A stretch of 35,537 nucleotides of DNA, from contig JAQWIO010000124.1 of the NCBI GenBank assembly GCA_029248845.1, positions 1-35,537 on the forward strand, written 5' to 3'. Made by a program: the position numbers and the translations under genes. Every line of letters begins with the position of its first letter. Position 1 is the first letter of the stretch. Positions 5,168-29,614 of this stretch are shown here, piece by piece. The stretch comes from Polaribacter sp. (GTDB lineage: Bacteria; Bacteroidota; Bacteroidia; Flavobacteriales; Flavobacteriaceae). A model generated the notes under the pieces. That model was not told the DNA's origin, searched no databases, and worked only from the letters and a program-made list of their open reading frames with translations.

Positions 5168-6502
5168 TTATAAACTTCTTACTGCTCTTTTAAATTGACG
5201 GCCTCTATCTTCATAGCTCTCGAACAAATCAAAACTTGCACAAGCTGGAGAGAGCAAAACCACTTCACCTCTTTCTGACAACTTATGTGAGACTTTCACA
5301 GCCTCTTCGGCTCCTGCAGTTTCAACAATAACATCAACTACATTACCAAACATATTTTTAATTTTTACATTATCAAGACCCAAACAAACAATGGCTTTTA
5401 CTTTTTCTCTTACCAATGGTAATAAATCGCTGTAATCATTTCCTTTATCAACTCCTCCAACAATCCAAACTGTAGACTTGTCCATACATTCTAACGCATA
5501 AAATGTTGCATTTACATTGGTTGCTTTAGAGTCGTTTATATACTCTACACCCTTAATTTTAGCTACATTTTCTAAACGGTGCTCAACACCTTCAAAGTCT
5601 TCTAAACTTTCTTTTATTGTTTGCTTTCGTAGCTTTAATAATTTTGCAGCCATTATTGCTGCCATTGCATTTTTAGTATTGTGTTTTCCCTTAACTGATA
5701 AAGTTGATAATGGCATAGTAAATATTTCTTTATTTATTTTGATGATTATAGTATTGTCTTTTAAATAGGCTCCGTATTCTAATTTTTTTTCAATTGAAAA
5801 TGGAACTAATCTTGCTTTGGTTTTGTTTTCTTCTAACCATTTATGAATCGCTGCATTGTCTGCGTCATAAATTAAATAATCGGTTGCATCTTGATTCATT
5901 GTTATTCTAAATTTTGACGCTATATACTTATCAAAGTCGTACTCATATCGATCTAAATGATCAGGAGTAATATTGGTTAAAATTGCAATATGACTTTTAA
6001 AATTTTGAATTCCGTCTAATTGAAAACTACTTAGTTCCAGAACATAATGTTCATGGGATTCTTCTGCTACTTGCTGAGCAAAACTGTGACCAATATTGCC
6101 TGCTAACCCAACATTTAAGTCTGCATTTTTTAAAATATGATGCAGTAATAAAGTTGTTGTCGTTTTACCATTTGAACCTGTGATCCCAATAATATTTGCA
6201 TTGGTATAGGAAGAAGCAAATTCAATTTCTGAAAGAATCGGAATCAACTTTTTCTTCAACTTTTGAACCAAAGCAACATGATCTGGAATTCCAGGGCTTT
6301 TCATCACTAGAGTAGCATTTAAAATGATACTTTCTGTATGATTCTTCTCCTCAAAATCTATCTTATTATGTAAAAGAACTTCTTTATATTTTTTTAAAAT
6401 TTCTCCTTTATCGGAGACAAAAACTTCATATCCTTTTTGCTTTCCTAAAAGTGCTGTTCCAACACCACTTTCACCTCCACCAAGAATTACCAGTTTTTTC
6501 AT
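5168..6502 (-). CDS. murD: UDP-N-acetylmuramoylalanine--D-glutamate ligase
   Basis: GITGSNGKTTTT, NITPDHLDRY, INDSKATN motifs. Confidence 0.97.
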   Translation of the reverse strand: MKKLVILGGGESGVGTALLGKQKGYEVFVSDKGEILKKYKEVLLHNKIDFEEKNHTESIILNATLVMKSPGIPDHVALVQKLKKKLIPILSEIEFASSYTNANIIGITGSNGKTTTTLLLHHILKNADLNVGLAGNIGHSFAQQVAEESHEHYVLELSSFQLDGIQNFKSHIAILTNITPDHLDRYEYDFDKYIASKFRITMNQDATDYLIYDADNAAIHKWLEENKTKARLVPFSIEKKLEYGAYLKDNTIIIKINKEIFTMPLSTLSVKGKHNTKNAMAAIMAAKLLKLRKQTIKESLEDFEGVEHRLENVAKIKGVEYINDSKATNVNATFYALECMDKSTVWIVGGVDKGNDYSDLLPLVREKVKAIVCLGLDNVKIKNMFGNVVDVIVETAGAEEAVKVSHKLSERGEVVLLSPACASFDLFESYEDRGRQFKRAVRSL

Positions 6503-7729
6503 TTATCTTAATTTCAGGGTAACAATTGTGAATACTGCTAATAAAATCCCTATAATCCAAAATCTGACTACAATTTTACTTTCGTGATAACTCAACTTTT
6601 GGTAGTGGTGATGTAATGGTGCCATTCTAAACACCCTTCTTCCTTCACCAAACTTCTTCTTCGTGTACTTGAACCAAGAAACCTGAAGAATTACAGAAAG
6701 ATTTTCAACAACAAAAATCCCGGCTAAAATTGGCAACAGTAATTCTTTACGAATTGCTATAGCAATAACAGCTATAATTCCACCAATTGTGAGGCTTCCT
6801 GTATCTCCCATAAACACTTGTGCAGGAAATGTATTATACCAGAGAAATCCAATTAATGACCCTGCAAATGCTAAAATAAAAACCGTCATTTCTCCAGAAT
6901 TTGGGATGTACATTACGTCTAAATAATCTGCAAAATTGATATTCCCAGAAACCCATGCAAAAACGGCTAATGTTAGGACTATAATTGCAGAAGTACCTGC
7001 TGCCAGGCCATCTACCCCATCTGTTAGATTTGCTCCATTTGAAACTCCTGTTACAATAAAGACAGTAATAAAAATAAAAACTAACCAGCCATATTTTTCA
7101 TATCCTTCTCCTAAAAAATGCAACAATTTAGAATAGTCTAATTCATTGTCTTTCATGAAAGGAACCGTGGTTTTTGTTGACTTATGAGCTTCCCCAAAAA
7201 TATTTTTTCTTCCTTCACTGTTTTCAATTTGTTGTTCTTTTGGGAGCTTTTCTTTGATTGTTACACCATCATTAAAATAAAGCATCAAACCAACGATAAT
7301 TCCCAAACCGACTTGACCTAAAACTTTGAATTTCCCTTTCAATCCTTCTTTATCTTTTTTAAACACTTTTATATAATCATCTAGAAAGCCTATAAAGCCC
7401 ATCCAAACAGTAGTTATGACAAGAATTATTATATAAATATTATTTAATTTAGCTAATAAAAACACAGGTATTAAAGTCGCCAAAATGATGATAATTCCTC
7501 CCATAGTTGGAGTCCCTGATTTTTGAACTTGCCCCTCTAGGCCTAAGTCTCTAATAGACTCTCCTACTTGTAGTCTTTGTAAAAAACAAATAATTCTCTT
7601 ACCGAAAATAGCAGAAATTAATAATGACAAAATAAATGCTGCAGCTGCTCTAAATGTGATAAATTGAAATACACTGGCTCCTGGAAAACTAAATTGACTT
7701 TCTAAATATTCGAATAAATAATACAGCAT
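6503..7729 (-). CDS. mraY: Phospho-N-acetylmuramoyl-pentapeptide transferase
   Basis: [37 protein letters not shown] motifs; long Bacteroidetes-type insert. Confidence 0.97.
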
Positions 7730-7731
7730 TT

Positions 7732-9198
7732 TTAGTTGTTTTTTAATTGATTGAAACAGATTTTAACTTCCTCTAAATCATCAAAATGAGATCTAACTCC
7801 ATTTATTTCTTGATAATTTTCATGTCCTTTTCCTGCAATTAATATGATATCTCCACGTTCAGAAAATTTACAGGCCGTTTTTATTGCCTGTCTTCTGTCT
7901 AAAATTGACAGCGTTTTTTTATAGTTTTCAGAGGCAATACCCATTTCCATTTCATCAATTATTGTTTGTGGATTTTCTGTTCTTGGATTGTCTGAAGTTA
8001 AAATCGATTGATCACTTAATTGTGAGGCAATATGAGCAATTTTTGGTCTTTTGGCTTTATCTCGATCTCCACCACAACCGACAACTGCAATCAATTTTTC
8101 ACTACCTTTTCTAATATCATTAATCGTTTCCAATACATTCATTAGTGCGTCAGGAGTATGCGCATAATCTATAATTGCTGTAACACCACCCTCAGAAATA
8201 ATAGATTCAAAACGACCACTTACATTTTCTAACTGACTGATAATTGTTAGTATTTCTAATTTTTCTAGGCCTAATAATTCTGCAACGGCAAAAATTGCTA
8301 CTAAATTAGAAGCATTAAATTGACCAATTAATTTTGTCCAAACTTCTGTTTCGTTAATTTTCAATAATGTGCCAGAAAATTGCTTCTCTAAAATTTTAGC
8401 TTTGTAATCTGCTATCGTTGTTAACGCGTAGGTTTTCTTTTTTGCCTTTGTATTTTGCAACATAAAGTTGCCATTTTTATCATCTAAATTTGTAAGTGCA
8501 AAAGCAGATTTAGATAAAGAATCAAAAAAAGATTTTTTTACATCTCTATACGCTGCAAAAGTCTCATGGTAATCTAGATGATCATGAGATAAATTGGTAA
8601 AAACTCCTCCAATAAAAGTTAACCCAGCTGTTCTTTTTTGATGAATTCCATGAGAACTCACTTCCATAAAACAGTAATCCACATCAGCATGAATCATTTT
8701 ATCTAAATAATAATTAATAGTTATAGAATCTGGAGTTGTATGTGTGGCCTTAAATTCGATTTCATCTACCATGATTTTAACAGTAGACAACAATCCAACT
8801 TTATAGCCTGCTTTTTTAAATAATTGATACAACAATGATGCTATCGTAGTTTTACCATTTGTTCCAGTGACACCCACTAAAGGTAATTTCTTAGATGGAT
8901 TACTGTAAAAATTAGCTGCCATAATAGCCAATGCTGAATTAACACAAGGAACCTGAACATAGGTAACCCCTTGTTTTTTGTCTTCTAATAAATCTTCACA
9001 AATGACAGCTATTGCTCCCAACTCTATTGCTTTATTTATAAACAAGTGACCATCAACATTACTTCCTTTTTGAGCTATAAAAACGGTTCCTTTTTCAACC
9101 TTTCTAGAATCAAAAACAATATTATTAATCTCAATATTTGTCAACCCAAAAACTTGATGAATAGTAACCCTATATAATATGTCTTTTAAATTTTTCAG
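7732..9198 (-). CDS. murE: UDP-N-acetylmuramoylalanyl-D-glutamate--2,6-diaminopimelate ligase
   Basis: [33 protein letters not shown] motifs. ORF track starts at 9144 (TTG), but the frame stays open and MurE-like to about 9198 ([25 protein letters not shown]); start codon uncertain, CTG at 9198 proposed. Confidence 0.93.
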
Positions 9199-22947: not shown

Positions 22948-24003
22948 ATGGCAACAAAATCTCTTTTAGCAAGAAATAATGACTTGGCAAATACAACTCG
23001 CCAACTAGAAATTCTTTCAAATGGAATTTTTGCCAGTGGAGAATTACCCACTTTTGTTTCAAAAATAAAGGAAACAAACCAGTTCCCGTTACGTCCAAAA
23101 AAATTAGAAATTCTACAAATAAACTTGGGGTATATGTGCAACCAAGTTTGCGCACATTGCCATGTAGATGCAGGTCCTGATCGAAAAGAAATTATGACAC
23201 TAGAAACCATGAATCAGTGTTTAAAGGTCATTCAAAAAACAGGAGCACATACGTTAGACTTAACTGGTGGCGCACCCGAAATGAATCCTAATTTTAGGTG
23301 GTTTGTAGAGGAAGCGGCCAAAGTAGGGATTAAAGATTTTATTGTTCGTTCTAACTTAACAATTATCAGAGCCCACAAAAAATACCATGATTTACCAGAA
23401 TTTTTCAAAAAATACCATATTCATGTAGTCTCTTCAATGCCGCATTGGACGCGAGGAAAAACAGACAAACAACGTGGAAATGGGGTTTTTGATCAATCTA
23501 TCAAAGCATTGCAAATGTTAAATGAAGTTGGTTATGGAGTAAAAGGATCCGAATTAAAATTAGATTTGGTCTACAACCCCTCTGGAGCCTTTTTACCTGG
23601 AGACCAAATGGCCTTAGAAAATGATTTTAAGAAAGCGTTGAAAAATAATTTTGATATTGATTTTCACCATTTGTTTGCCATTACCAATTTACCAATTAGT
23701 CGGTTTTTAGATTATTTAATCGCTTCTGAAAATTACGAAGACTATATGATTTCTCTCGTAGAGGCCTACAATCCTGCAGCTGTAGCCAATGTGATGTGTA
23801 CCAATACCCTTTCTGTAAGTTGGGAGGGCTGGTTATATGATTGCGACTTCAATCAAATGTTAAATTTAAAAGTTGCCAGTAGTATAAAACACATCTCAGA
23901 ATATAATAAAGAACTAATTCAAGATAGAAATATCATTATCAATCAACATTGTTATGGGTGTACTGCTGGTGCAGGAAGTAGTTGCCAGGGGGTAGTTGCC
24001 TAA
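22948..24003 (+). CDS. arsS: Arsenosugar biosynthesis radical SAM protein ArsS
   Basis: CNQVCAHCHVDAGPDRKEIM (CxxxCxxC), LTGGAPEMNPNFRWFVE, C-terminal Cys-rich domain MCTNTLSVSWEGWLYDCDFNQML and HCYGCTAGAGSSCQG. Confidence 0.92.
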   Translation: MATKSLLARNNDLANTTRQLEILSNGIFASGELPTFVSKIKETNQFPLRPKKLEILQINLGYMCNQVCAHCHVDAGPDRKEIMTLETMNQCLKVIQKTGAHTLDLTGGAPEMNPNFRWFVEEAAKVGIKDFIVRSNLTIIRAHKKYHDLPEFFKKYHIHVVSSMPHWTRGKTDKQRGNGVFDQSIKALQMLNEVGYGVKGSELKLDLVYNPSGAFLPGDQMALENDFKKALKNNFDIDFHHLFAITNLPISRFLDYLIASENYEDYMISLVEAYNPAAVANVMCTNTLSVSWEGWLYDCDFNQMLNLKVASSIKHISEYNKELIQDRNIIINQHCYGCTAGAGSSCQGVVA

Positions 24004-24061
24004 CTTTAAAGAATCGAACGAAGTTAAAAAGACTTCTTAATTATTGTAAAGTATACAAAAA

Positions 24062-24670
24062 TTGAATACTAAAAATGCCCTTATTATTTTTATTCGGAAT
24101 CCTATACTCGGAAAAGTAAAAACACGTTTGGCAAAATCGGTGGGTGATGAAACCGCCTTGAATATCTACCGATTTTTATTGGATAAAACCAAAGAAGTCA
24201 CTCAGCATCTACCCTGTGATAAAATAGTTTTTTACTCCGAAGAAATTATAAATAAAGATATTTGGGATACTCCTATCTATCAAAAAAAGCTTCAAGATGG
24301 TGCAGATTTGGGAGCAAAAATGAACCATGCATTTGAATCTTGTTTTAAAAATAATTATAAGAACGTTGTATTGATTGGAAGCGATGTATTCGATCTAAAA
24401 GAATCTCATCTTGAGGAAGCTTTTGAACAATTAGAAAAAAAAAATGTCGTTATGGGCCCAGCTTTAGACGGTGGTTATTATTTATTGGGGTTAAAAAAAG
24501 AGCATCCAGAAATCTTTATCAATAAAAACTGGGGAACCTCCACTGTACGAAAAAATACGATGAAACACTTAGAAAAAGAGAATGTACATCTGTTACCCAT
24601 GTTGAATGATATCGATGTTATTGAAGATCTCAAACACCATCCTGCTCTTAGTAAATTTCTACCATTCTAA
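24062..24670 (+). CDS. TIGR04282-like (DUF2064) glycosyltransferase/nucleotidyltransferase-fold protein of arsenosugar loci (TTG start)
   Basis: NALIIFIRNPILGKVKTRLAKSVGDETAL, VVLIGSDVFDL, VVMGPALDGGYYLLGLKK; adjacent to arsS. Confidence 0.85.
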   Translation: MNTKNALIIFIRNPILGKVKTRLAKSVGDETALNIYRFLLDKTKEVTQHLPCDKIVFYSEEIINKDIWDTPIYQKKLQDGADLGAKMNHAFESCFKNNYKNVVLIGSDVFDLKESHLEEAFEQLEKKNVVMGPALDGGYYLLGLKKEHPEIFINKNWGTSTVRKNTMKHLEKENVHLLPMLNDIDVIEDLKHHPALSKFLPF

Positions 24671-24724
24671 GAAGAAGGTATCATTTATAAATACGGAAAC
24701 AAGTTCAGCAACAGTCCATTGAGC

Positions 24725-24775
24725 ATTTATAAAAAAAAACCAACAACCCTATAAAAGAGCTGTTGATTTTTTTTA
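24725..24775. terminator. Probable terminator downstream of the transferase and of the convergent FN3 gene
   Basis: AACCAACAACCCTATAAAAGAGCTGTTGATTTTTTTT; imperfect hairpin plus T tract, paralogous to 26155-26200. Confidence 0.6.
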
Positions 24776-24820
24776 ACCGACCACGCAGGGTAATTTATAA
24801 ATATTTAAACATACGCTATC

Positions 24821-24877
24821 TAGGCCTGCCTGCCGATGGTAGGCCTGCCTGCCGAAGGTAGGCCTGCCTGCCGAAGG
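24821..24877. repeat. Three tandem 19-bp GC-rich repeats TAGGCCTGCCTGCCGAWGG, hairpin-forming
   Basis: Copies 24821-24839, 24840-24858, 24859-24877; followed by CAGGTAG, which pairs with the last copy (CCTGCC-GAA-GGCAGG). Confidence 0.95.
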
Positions 24878-24888
24878 CAGGTAGATGT

Positions 24889-25989
24889 TTAAAAAGACCG
24901 AACGGGACGAACCAAATAAGTGTTGGACTTTTCCCCACCAGTTAGTAAACCATTCGAGAAATTATATCTCCACGCTTGTGTACCTTTCTCCGAAGAACTC
25001 CAGTAGTAGTCATTAATAAATACCCTACCGTCATTTGATTCTAATATGGGGTTTATAGTTACCCTTTCATCATACATTTTGTTCAACTCATGTATTGAAG
25101 GTAAATACCAATCATCGTAATTACCACCACGATAAGTTGTTGCCTGATAGGCTGCATAGTTTTGATTGCCTGGAAATTTAACAATAATCTTATCGGTATT
25201 AAATTTACCACGGTCCATATTCTCTAGTGTTCCCGTCACTTCCTGCGCTACACCATCAGGACTCCATTGTATTTCAGAATCTAAGTCTTCTAAAGCACAA
25301 ATCAACCCACGTATTTGACCATAAACATGGTTGGGGTCATCACCGTTTAAAAGATAAAACACCACACCCCCTTGATAAAAATCACCTACTTTGGGGATCA
25401 ATTCTACTGAATTTGAAGCTTCGCTAGGAAGACTGGTGTCAATGGCATTGGTAGCCGTAACGGTAAAGGTGTAAGATTCGCCAATGGCTAACGATGTAAC
25501 TCTTATTTTATTATTTTGATTAAATTCTTCGGCAGAAAATTGTTGAGCGGAAATGGGGGTAACAGCTCCTAAAATTGGAGTAACTGTATAAGAAATAATA
25601 TCTGAGCCTCCATTTTCTGATGGAGATGGAGGGGTAAAAGTAATCTCAACTTCTCCAGATACATTAGTAACAACAGAGGCTTGAACATTTGTTGGAGCAC
25701 TTGGACAGGTAATTAGTTTCGTCAAAGCTTTCCATTCTTGACCATTATAAAACATAATTACTCCTTTACCTTCAAAATCGGTAACATACACCTGTAACCC
25801 TGTAGCAGGGCTTGAAATATCACGACGTTGCTGATTGGTCATTCTTGGCAACAAAAACCCTTTGCTAGTACTTTTTAATTCTAAAACAGCTGTCTCTTCT
25901 ATTTCATCTGTACCAATACCTACTTGAGCACATAATGAAAATGAAATAACAAAACTTAGAGATACGAGTATTAATTGTAGCTTTTTCAT
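24889..25989 (-). CDS. Secreted FN3-domain protein with C-terminal DUF1566/Lcl-type domain
   Basis: Signal peptide, VGIGTDEIEETAVLELKSTSKGFLLPRMTNQQR motif, FN3-like PTNVQASVVTNVSGEVEITFTPP, C-terminal YRGGNYDDWYLPSIHELNKMY...YYWSSSE...VRPVRSF. Confidence 0.8.
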   Translation of the reverse strand: MKKLQLILVSLSFVISFSLCAQVGIGTDEIEETAVLELKSTSKGFLLPRMTNQQRRDISSPATGLQVYVTDFEGKGVIMFYNGQEWKALTKLITCPSAPTNVQASVVTNVSGEVEITFTPPSPSENGGSDIISYTVTPILGAVTPISAQQFSAEEFNQNNKIRVTSLAIGESYTFTVTATNAIDTSLPSEASNSVELIPKVGDFYQGGVVFYLLNGDDPNHVYGQIRGLICALEDLDSEIQWSPDGVAQEVTGTLENMDRGKFNTDKIIVKFPGNQNYAAYQATTYRGGNYDDWYLPSIHELNKMYDERVTINPILESNDGRVFINDYYWSSSEKGTQAWRYNFSNGLLTGGEKSNTYLVRPVRSF

Positions 25990-26154
25990 CTTTTTTGTTT
26001 AAAGTTAGCAAATAAAATAAAACTAACAAAATTATTCATTGTTTTTCATTTAATTGAAATGAAACGTTTCTTTAAAAATAAGGGAGACAAAAGCAACTTC
26101 TTGTTTCTATTGTACGAATCTTCCTGTCTTGCTTCCCTTCAATAGCGTCCTAAA

Positions 26155-26200
26155 AAGACCAACAACTCTACAAAAGAACTGTTGGTTATTTGTTTTTTTA
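26155..26200. terminator. Probable terminator, paralogous to 24725-24775
   Basis: ACCAACAACTCTACAAAAGAACTGTTGGTTATTTGTTTTTTT hairpin plus T tract. Confidence 0.6.
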
Positions 26201-26267
26201 AACCAACCACTTGTGCGGTAATTTATGAATACTTAAATGGTAAACCTGCCTACCGGAAGATAGATTC

Positions 26268-27346
26268 TTAAAAAGCCCGAATGAGACGCACCTGGAGACT
26301 AAAATTCTTACTATAATGATTCGAGGAGCTATAAAAAATCGACCACGCTTTATATTTATCGTACTCAGAAGAACTCCAGTAGGAATTTCCAATTTCAGTA
26401 AACTCAGAGTTAGCCTCTAAGATTGATTTAGAATCATACATTTCGTTCAACTCATCTTTTGAGGGTAAAAACCAATCTGTGTAACCACCACCTCTGTATG
26501 CCCTTGCCAAGCCTGCTGCATAATCTGTTTGAATTTCGCCTTGTATGTCTATAATAATAGAAGTATTGTTTGCGCCTTTGTCTATTGCTGTGTCTGTTAC
26601 TCCTGTAGTAAGATTAGAACCATTGTACCAAGGGACCGGACCTTGATCTTCTATAGCACAAATCAAACCTTGATCTTCATTTCCATCTCCATCTAAATCT
26701 GTTGGTATTGGAGCTATGTAAAACACCACACCTCCTTGATAAAAATCACCTACTGTGGCGGTGTTGTTATTGAATTTGAAGCTTCACTAGGAAGACTAGT
26801 GCCAATGGCATTGGTAGCCTTAACGGTAAAGGTGTAAGATTTGCCAATGGCTAAGCCTGTAACCTTTGTACTAGCATTTCCTGATGCGTATACCTCGGTA
26901 CCTGATGCGTCTACCTCGGTAGGAGTACCGGTAACACCTCCTAAAATTGGAGTAACTTTGTAAGAAATAATATCCGAGCCTCCATTATCTGATGGGGGGG
27001 TAAAAGTAATCTCAACTTCTCCAGATGCATTAGTAACAACAGAGGCTTGTACCTCTGTTGGGGCATTTGGTCTCGAACCTAGTTGCGTGAATGCTTTCCA
27101 TTTATCAGCCTCATAAAACATAATTGTTCCTTCACGAAAATCTGTGACAAAAACCTGTAATCCTTGAGCTGGGTCTTTAATAGCAAGACGCTCTGCATTG
27201 GTCATTCTTGGCAACAAAAAGCCTTGACTCTTACTTTCTAATTCTAAAATAGCTGAGTCATGTGTATCATGTTTACCAATACTAATCTGGGCAAACGATG
27301 AAACTGAAATAGCAAAACCTAGGGAAATTATTACTAACTTTTTCAT
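26268..27346 (-). pseudogene. Second FN3/DUF1566-like gene, paralog of 24889-25989, split by a frameshift near 26750-26770
   Basis: ORFs 26750-27346 (N-terminus plus FN3, ends SNSITTPPQ*) and 26268-26729 (GGVVFYIAP...YRGGGYTDWFLPSKDELNEMY...VRLIRAF) together match the intact paralog; 1 nt shorter at the junction. Confidence 0.85.
26880..26921 (-). repeat. In-frame 21-bp tandem duplication within the frameshifted FN3 gene
   Basis: CCTGATGCGTATACCTCGGTA / CCTGATGCGTCTACCTCGGTA (20/21 identical), encoding (TEV[DY]ASG)x2; absent from the paralog. Confidence 0.9.
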
Positions 27347-27550
27347 TTTATTAACTAATGTACAAAATAAAATAAAGATTAAAAAAAAAATTAATTGAAA
27401 TCAAATTTTCTTTAAAAATAGCAGAGACAAAAGCAACTTCTTGTTTCAATTATCAAATTGCTTCGGTTATACTTCCCTATTGATGACGGGGTGGTATTAT
27501 TGCGTTCCTGCCAATTGATAGTCAAGAAAAAACCTTCCCCTGCAATTTAT

Positions 27551-27795
27551 GATGTGATAACATAGTTTTTTACTCCAAAGAAATCACAAATTAAGGATAT
27601 TTGAGATACTATTATCGATCAAAAAAAAGTATCCAAAAATCTTGATCAATAGGAACTGGGAAACATCCATTGTGAAAAAACACTATTAAAAACTTAGAAA
27701 AAGTTAATGTACATTTGTTACCAATGTTGAATGATATAAATGTGATTGAAGAGATCAAATATAGTCCTGCTTTTACTAAATTTTTAACATTCTAA
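27551..27795 (+). pseudogene. Decayed 3' fragment of a second copy of the TIGR04282-like transferase
   Basis: Nucleotide similarity to 24216-24682: tgtgataacatagttttttactccaaagaaat..., ...gtacatttgttaccaatgttgaatgatataaatgtgattgaagag...ttctaaaagaaaagtatcat; internal ~211-bp deletion, frameshifts and stops. Confidence 0.9.
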
Positions 27796-27830
27796 AAGAA
27801 AAGTATCATAAACAGTAAACTTTTGCATAC

Positions 27831-28649
27831 ATGAAAAAACAACAACTATTAAAGGAAACGACTGATTTTTTAATCTCTAAGGGGTTTAAAAATCCCGCAA
27901 TAGGGATTGTATTAGGAACTGGCTTAAGTCAATTAATCAATGAAATTGACATTGAACAAGAAATTGCATATTCAGACATTCCACATTTCCCAAAAGCAAC
28001 TGTAGAATTTCACACTGGAAAATTAATTTTAGGAACACTTTCAGGAAAAAAAGTAATTGTTATGTCTGGTAGATTTCACCTATATGAAGGATACAATCAA
28101 TGGGAAGTAACCTATGGAATTAGAACCATGCATCGATTAGGAATTTCTAACTTATTAATATCTAACGCAGCAGGAGCTATCAATCTTTCTTACCAAAAAG
28201 GTGATTTAATGCTTATTGAGGACCATCTAAATTTACAAGGAGGATCCCCTCTGGCATTTGCTGAAATAAATGAGTTTGGAGAACGTTTTGTAGATATGTT
28301 AGCGCCCTATTCTAAAACAATGAATGATTTGTTAAAAGCAATTGCCAAAAAGAATGATATTCGATTACAAGAAGGAACCTATGCAGGAGTTTACGGACCA
28401 CAATTGGAAACTAGAGCAGAGTATAGAATGTTACAAATTTTAGAAGCTGATGCCGTAGGAATGAGTACTGTACCCGAAGTGATTGTAGCTAAGCATTTGA
28501 AGTTACCTTGTGCTGCAATTTCAGTCTTAACAGATGAATGCGATCCGAAAAATTTAGCTCCGGTAAATATTCATGAAATTATCGAAATTGCTGAGAAAAC
28601 AGAACCAAAAATGCTCCTATTATTTAAAGAATTGATACAAAAATTATGA
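27831..28649 (+). CDS. Purine-nucleoside phosphorylase (PNP-I, trimeric type)
   Basis: GIVLGTGLSQL, MSGRFHLYEGY, SNAAGAIN, GTYAGVYGPQLETRAEYRMLQILEADAVGMSTVPEVIVAKH. Confidence 0.95.
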   Translation: MKKQQLLKETTDFLISKGFKNPAIGIVLGTGLSQLINEIDIEQEIAYSDIPHFPKATVEFHTGKLILGTLSGKKVIVMSGRFHLYEGYNQWEVTYGIRTMHRLGISNLLISNAAGAINLSYQKGDLMLIEDHLNLQGGSPLAFAEINEFGERFVDMLAPYSKTMNDLLKAIAKKNDIRLQEGTYAGVYGPQLETRAEYRMLQILEADAVGMSTVPEVIVAKHLKLPCAAISVLTDECDPKNLAPVNIHEIIEIAEKTEPKMLLLFKELIQKL

Positions 28650-29614
28650 GTTATCTTGAAACAACACATGACATATACAAAGAAGCAGCATTGACTCCAG
28701 ATGTGGGCTTATGCTGTACAACCAATCCCATTTGGGAGTTGCCAGGATTAAAAATCCCCAAAATTATGCAAGAAATGAATTATGGTTGTGGTTCTACTGT
28801 TCATGCACGTGATTTAACAAACAACCCCAAAATGTTGTATGTGGGTGTAGGCGGTGGCATGGAATTATTGCAATTTTCTTATTTTAATCGTCAAAAAGGA
28901 GGGGTAATTGGATTGGATGTTGTTGATGAAATGTTAGAAGCCTCTCGTACAAACTTTGCGAAAGCTGAACAAATGAACTCATGGTTTAAAAGTGAATTTG
29001 TAAACCTTCTAAAAGGCGATGCAATGAACCTGCCTATTGAAGATAATTCTATTGATGTAGCAGCTCAAAATTGTTTGTTCAATATTTTCAAATCTGACGA
29101 CTTAAAAAAAGCCATTTCAGAGATGTATCGGGTGTTAAAACCTCATGGTAGATTGGTAATGAGTGATCCAACCTGTGAACAACCCATGAACGATGAATTA
29201 CGAAATGACGAACGGTTACGTGCTTTATGTTTGAGTGGTAGCTTATCGATTGCAGATTACGTAAAATGCTTAACAAATGCAGGTTTTGGAACCATCGAAA
29301 TTAGAGCTCGTAAACCCTACAGAATTCTAGACCCAAAGAATTATCCAACAGATGAACTCATCTATATAGAATCAATTGAGGTAGCTGCAATTAAAGACCC
29401 AATGCCAGAAGATGGACCCTGTATTTTTACAGGGAAAGCCGCTATTTATTACGGTAATGAAGATTATTTTGATGATGGAGCTGGACATATCTTATTAAAA
29501 AATCAACCTTTGGCTATTTGTGATAAAACAGCCAATCAGCTTCAACAAGCTGCCAACAATAATATTTTCATTAGTGAATCTACCTATCATTATGATGGTG
29601 GAGGCTGTTGTTAA
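28646..29614 (+). CDS. arsM: Arsenosugar-type arsenite methyltransferase ArsM
   Basis: SAM-binding VGVGGGMELLQFSYF, DLGLCC/YGCG-like Cys motifs (VGLCCTTNPIW, MNYGCGSTVHARDL), C-terminal GGGCC; overlaps the PNP stop by 4 nt. Confidence 0.85.
   Translation: MSYLETTHDIYKEAALTPDVGLCCTTNPIWELPGLKIPKIMQEMNYGCGSTVHARDLTNNPKMLYVGVGGGMELLQFSYFNRQKGGVIGLDVVDEMLEASRTNFAKAEQMNSWFKSEFVNLLKGDAMNLPIEDNSIDVAAQNCLFNIFKSDDLKKAISEMYRVLKPHGRLVMSDPTCEQPMNDELRNDERLRALCLSGSLSIADYVKCLTNAGFGTIEIRARKPYRILDPKNYPTDELIYIESIEVAAIKDPMPEDGPCIFTGKAAIYYGNEDYFDDGAGHILLKNQPLAICDKTANQLQQAANNNIFISESTYHYDGGGCC

Follow-up and report, generated by a model that had tools for sequence, protein, structure and literature searches.

The window, by which we mean the whole stretch of DNA analysed here, is one entire contig (C94, 35,537 bp) of an incomplete marine Polaribacter genome (1.24 Mb, 53.5% complete). 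It carries a row of ars genes in which an AhpD-like gene (TIGR04169), arsS, a glycosyltransferase gene (TF), a purine-nucleoside phosphorylase gene (PNP) and arsM were named by NCBIfam profiles, all scoring above their cut-offs (Table 1). TF is the sole full transferase copy in this partial assembly. Among the genomes found, the closest is Polaribacter sp. HE327_NSB031, a metagenome genome (L037, seemingly identical with G137), and L038/G066 comes next.

Table 1. Features between arsS and arsM, in window coordinates
Feature	Position	Strand	Evidence
arsS, arsenosugar radical SAM protein	22948–24003	+	TIGR04167, 433 bits (cut-off 300)
TF, intact arsenosugar glycosyltransferase gene, TTG start	24062–24670	+	TIGR04282, 210.8 bits (cut-off 134)
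Ancestral TF-PNP spacer behind intact TF, to degenerate PNP start (ATA for ATG)	24671–24730	+	
FN3 unit a: intact FN3 + Lcl_C gene (24889–25989) and upstream region	24733–26138	-	PF00041, PF07603
FN3 unit b: second FN3 + Lcl_C gene, frameshift-broken	26152–27478	-	PF00041, PF07603
Junction between FN3 unit b and psiTF, 74 bp	27479–27552	.	No match found
psiTF, transferase pseudogene: from TF codon ~52 through the stop into the 3' flank, 211-bp internal deletion at 27621–27629	27553–27809	+	
Shortened TF-PNP spacer preceding PNP	27810–27830	+	Alignment with L037 and L038
PNP, purine-nucleoside phosphorylase gene, intact	27831–28649	+	NF006054, 324.6 bits
arsM of arsenosugar type, intact	28646–29614	+	NF038099, 573.9 bits

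The FN3/Lcl block

An earlier, sequence-only reading of the window described an FN3 block that now parts the transferase from PNP, and a 3.1-kb FN3/Lcl block indeed lies there. Its two units stand on the opposite strand to the ars genes and have an upstream region in common, each with its own terminator-like hairpin (about 24733–24772 in unit a, with repeats D6 and D7; 26158–26186 in unit b, with repeat D7). A frameshift, located between 26729 and 26750, breaks the unit b gene (26268–27346), which is otherwise well preserved. Units b and a share 76% DNA identity over the main part of unit b, and since the FN3 part of the unit b gene is close to the unit a copy and the C-terminal part is distant from that copy, a mosaic exchange is suggested. 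Short tandem repeats occur in both units: three copies of a 19-bp G+C-rich sequence (TAGGCCTGCCTGCCGAAGG) immediately following the first FN3 gene (24821–24881), and two copies of a 21-bp sequence inside the broken gene (26880–26921) that is absent from its sister.

At an E-value of 1e-20 or lower, 13 of 168 genomes hold relatives of the FN3 genes, the best outside the window's own genome at 46%. A further Polaribacter genome, G154 (L081), also carries such genes side by side (ORFs 6442–7245 and 7373–8410), so that the pair in the window may already have been in tandem before its arrival between TF and PNP. The block holds only FN3/Lcl genes and yielded neither a transposase or integrase nor a terminal repeat; its ends bear no inverted repeat pair resembling element termini. 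These absences, and a flanking duplication of about 515 bp, set the arrangement apart from a transposon insertion.

A decayed transferase remnant in front of PNP

Directly upstream of PNP lies a remnant of the transferase gene (psiTF), homologous to codons ~52–202 of the TIGR04282-type gene and occupying the position of TF in relatives. The pairwise alignment by which the sequence-only reading had proposed to be checked gave two strong, collinear pieces. When 27401–28000 was compared with 23901–24900 by blastn, positions 27621–27809 matched 24494–24684 at 81% identity (E 4e-49, or 9e-46 when searched within the whole window), and 27553–27627 matched 24215–24288 at 87% identity (E 2e-21). The alignment score of 226 was reached by none of 300 first-order Markov shuffles of the query (maximum 54), and the two copies share the stop codon and a downstream GTATCAT. 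This bears out the earlier proposal of a decayed duplicate of the transferase 3' part and flank; the bounds then given, 27551–27795, need a small correction, the remnant starting at 27553 and ending at 27809. An extension upstream into the TF 5' part or arsS was rejected as not significant: for 27452–27552 neither the first part of TF nor the end of arsS gave a detectable match, with 220 of 300 shuffles scoring as high. Likewise, the junction sequence (27479–27552) gave no significant match to the TF 5' part, arsS, the region upstream of FN3 unit a or elsewhere in the assembly, and no hit in the genus starts within it.

The internal deletion was located exactly by the earlier reading. TF contains two AAAAAAAG runs, at 24282–24289 and 24493–24500, spaced 211 bp apart, in place of which psiTF keeps a single fused run, AAAAAAAAG, at 27621–27629; the loss is of exactly 211 bp, which is not a multiple of three and breaks the frame. 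Deletion between short direct repeats is a general mechanism, and the loss in psiTF, bounded by identical repeats of which one is left, shows no difference from it and is an ordinary case. In addition, psiTF is without the TF start, its 5' piece has a +1 insertion that creates TAA, a TGG-to-TGA change replaces a tryptophan codon by a stop, and its 3' piece has lost 2 bp. Beginning at codon ~52 and bearing these lesions, psiTF cannot encode the enzyme and, in contrast to the TIGR04282 transferase gene, is not a gene. Differences between TF and psiTF fall on codon positions 1, 2 and 3 in the numbers 16/9/17, against 19/3/27 between TF and its orthologue in G137; second-position changes are therefore raised in psiTF, as in a pseudogene, which fits a loss of constraint. 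With homology to an intact gene at 24062–24670, a destroyed frame and relaxed constraint, psiTF is by its sequence features an ordinary pseudogene and presumably a non-functional relic.

Extent of the duplication and the ancestral gene order

TF and PNP coordinates could be paired in 84 same-genus genomes, and in all 84 TF precedes PNP on the same strand in collinear order. The gap between them is at most 236 bp in 69 genomes (68 with no more than 200 bp, one with 236 bp) and 760–859 bp in the other 15; none exceeds 859 bp, so FN3 genes were seen between TF and PNP in none of these relatives. The window, with a gap of 3160 bp, is alone at this size among the genomes paired. L037 and L038 have uninterrupted arsS-TF-PNP-arsM, the very order that the earlier reading expected of related genomes, with TF-PNP gaps of about 60–75 bp. 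Its claim that the transferase formerly lay immediately upstream of PNP accords with this, and the comparisons support arsS-TF-PNP-arsM as the ancestral order. A misjoined contig appears an unlikely source of the arrangement, because the window continues on both sides as L037 does, which has no FN3 block; in L037 and L038 alike, the neighbouring genes correspond to those of the window on either side.

The duplication seems to reach beyond the coding sequence of TF. Behind the intact TF, 24671–24730 resembles the TF-PNP spacer of L038 (none of 1000 shuffles as good) and that of L037 (core, 2 of 1000 shuffles; a longer stretch is weaker, at 44 of 1000), and a shortened form of the same spacer stands in front of PNP. 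The evidence for a duplicated spacer comes from these relatives, the two spacers of the window not being significant when compared directly. The duplicated block would then span about 515 bp, running from TF codon ~52 across the spacer and ending near the start codon of PNP, an extent that is well supported. The duplication of the transferase 3' end proposed earlier was thus correct as to the 3' part of TF and too small, the spacer to about the PNP start being included. Both flanks of the insert carry this ancestral block, which is complete in the unoccupied relatives, all 84 of which are without the FN3 block. Two further resemblances were not counted. The first 40 bp beyond 24733 resemble the start of PNP (1 of 1000 shuffles), and were rejected as PNP coding sequence because they form the FN3 terminator hairpin, present in unit b too, and because the L037 PNP start is unmatched; a 33-bp match to the psiTF spacer in contig C28 of G137 has no gene-start context and was taken as chance.

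As to age, TF and psiTF group as sisters after the split from G137, with UFBoot 89 on 249 shared columns and 94 with the full gene. The alternative placements of psiTF or TF with G137 are not rejected (AU p 0.11–0.25). The branch uniting the two copies has little length, and of the derived sites 5 are shared by psiTF with G137 and 7 with TF. The duplication is probably younger than the split from G137 and, with 17% of sites differing between the copies, is by this measure not recent.

Origin and consequences of the arrangement

At the level of sequence, these comparisons establish the homology and decay of psiTF and the ancestral order of its locus. We consider it somewhat probable, taking the whole history together, that the remnant is a non-functional relic of the entry of the FN3/Lcl block with direct duplication. 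From an ancestor with arsS-TF-PNP-arsM, the block would have settled between TF and PNP along with direct duplication of about 515 bp; the left copy would have remained part of a complete TF, and the right copy, without the TF start, would have been free to decay, dropping 211 bp, most simply via slippage or recombination between the two AAAAAAAG runs, and acquiring frameshifts and stops. The split of the operon and the partial duplicate claimed by the earlier reading stand; we infer that a single insertion event made the duplication, as we do the slippage or recombination behind the 211-bp loss. No intermediate state was present among the genomes found, which counts against this history, as do the weak tree, the unmatched 74-bp junction and the lack of mobile-element genes or ends in the block. 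Direct flanking duplication is a general outcome of insertion or single-crossover integration, and the window shows the same complete gene, insert, and truncated copy with a complete downstream gene; it differs in being old, eroded and devoid of a recognisable vector or mobile element.

The one-event claim is limited in that an older tandem duplication of TF, entered later by FN3 genes, leaves the same anatomy. Such a history, in which TF-TF-PNP, with the spacer doubled too, arose first and the FN3/Lcl genes inserted later where the copies met, deleting the 5' part of the second one, is possible but rather unlikely. The full spacer retained by the left copy is what plain tandem duplication also gives, and a faster change of TF would be expected if two working copies had shared the job awhile. 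At positions unanimous in five outgroups, the TF of the window has 14 changes against 2 in that of G137, whereas the corresponding counts are 5:6 for arsS, 6:7 for PNP and 8:3 for arsM; single-outgroup relative-rate tests for TF gave p 0.009–0.06, in a comparison that was not planned beforehand and that rests on one gene pair. Against G137, dN/dS is 0.20 for TF and 0.05–0.11 for arsS, PNP and arsM, by which measure TF is still under purifying selection, its faster amino-acid change fitting a time when TF was redundant or less in demand. Against a tandem duplication first, it requires two events and the loss of the 5' part, and no relative was seen with two tandem TF genes, second hits in the genus being distant (28–41% identity) and non-adjacent.

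In a special form of the insertion history, which we regard as improbable, a DNA circle from another strain that bore a TF segment together with the spacer and FN3 genes would have integrated by a single crossover. The left TF would then be a chimera of native and donor sequence, in that order, and the right remnant one of donor and native sequence. A crossover inside an internal fragment gives exactly the observed arrangement, and the identities to G137 also speak for it, psiTF being as close as TF in the 3' piece (83.1%, TF 81.4%) and TF closer in the 5' piece (77.9%, psiTF 72.7%). Yet these differences are small, AU tests for each segment fail to separate the topologies, and the donor was not found. 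Still less credible is the fuller version in which homologous single-crossover integration from a diverged strain would have left a chimeric TF with faster change and PNP-arsM under separate control; if it were true, the faster amino-acid change would reflect a mixed origin or an altered job.

That the remnant was kept as a promoter or leader of PNP-arsM after the operon link was lost is likewise doubtful: PNP and arsM are intact with low dN/dS (0.05–0.13), which requires their transcription, and the FN3 genes are oppositely oriented, but the + strand of 27341–27840 holds neither a near-consensus Bacteroidota promoter pair (TTTG...TAnnTTTG) nor a sigma-70-like site, and psiTF carries many changes.

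Returning to the entry of the FN3/Lcl block with direct duplication, two genes with terminators now stand between the halves of the row, and on this layout PNP-arsM must presumably be transcribed apart from arsS-TF. No literature was found on an arsenosugar operon with PNP or ArsS, nor anything else bearing on the locus. The locus is an ordinary, well-preserved genomic scar and changes no general picture. It offers a clear, polarised example of an arsenosugar operon split by inserted surface-protein-type genes, in which the relic fixes both the ancestral order and the entry site, and which could help in asking whether separate control of the pathway's two halves is possible. The TF-PNP junction has taken up other genes elsewhere in the genus: two of the 15 larger gaps were opened, and each is filled by one co-directional gene for a secreted-looking protein of 242–248 aa with a C-terminal sorting-like end (L023, 760–1488, - strand; L030, 2100–2846, + strand).
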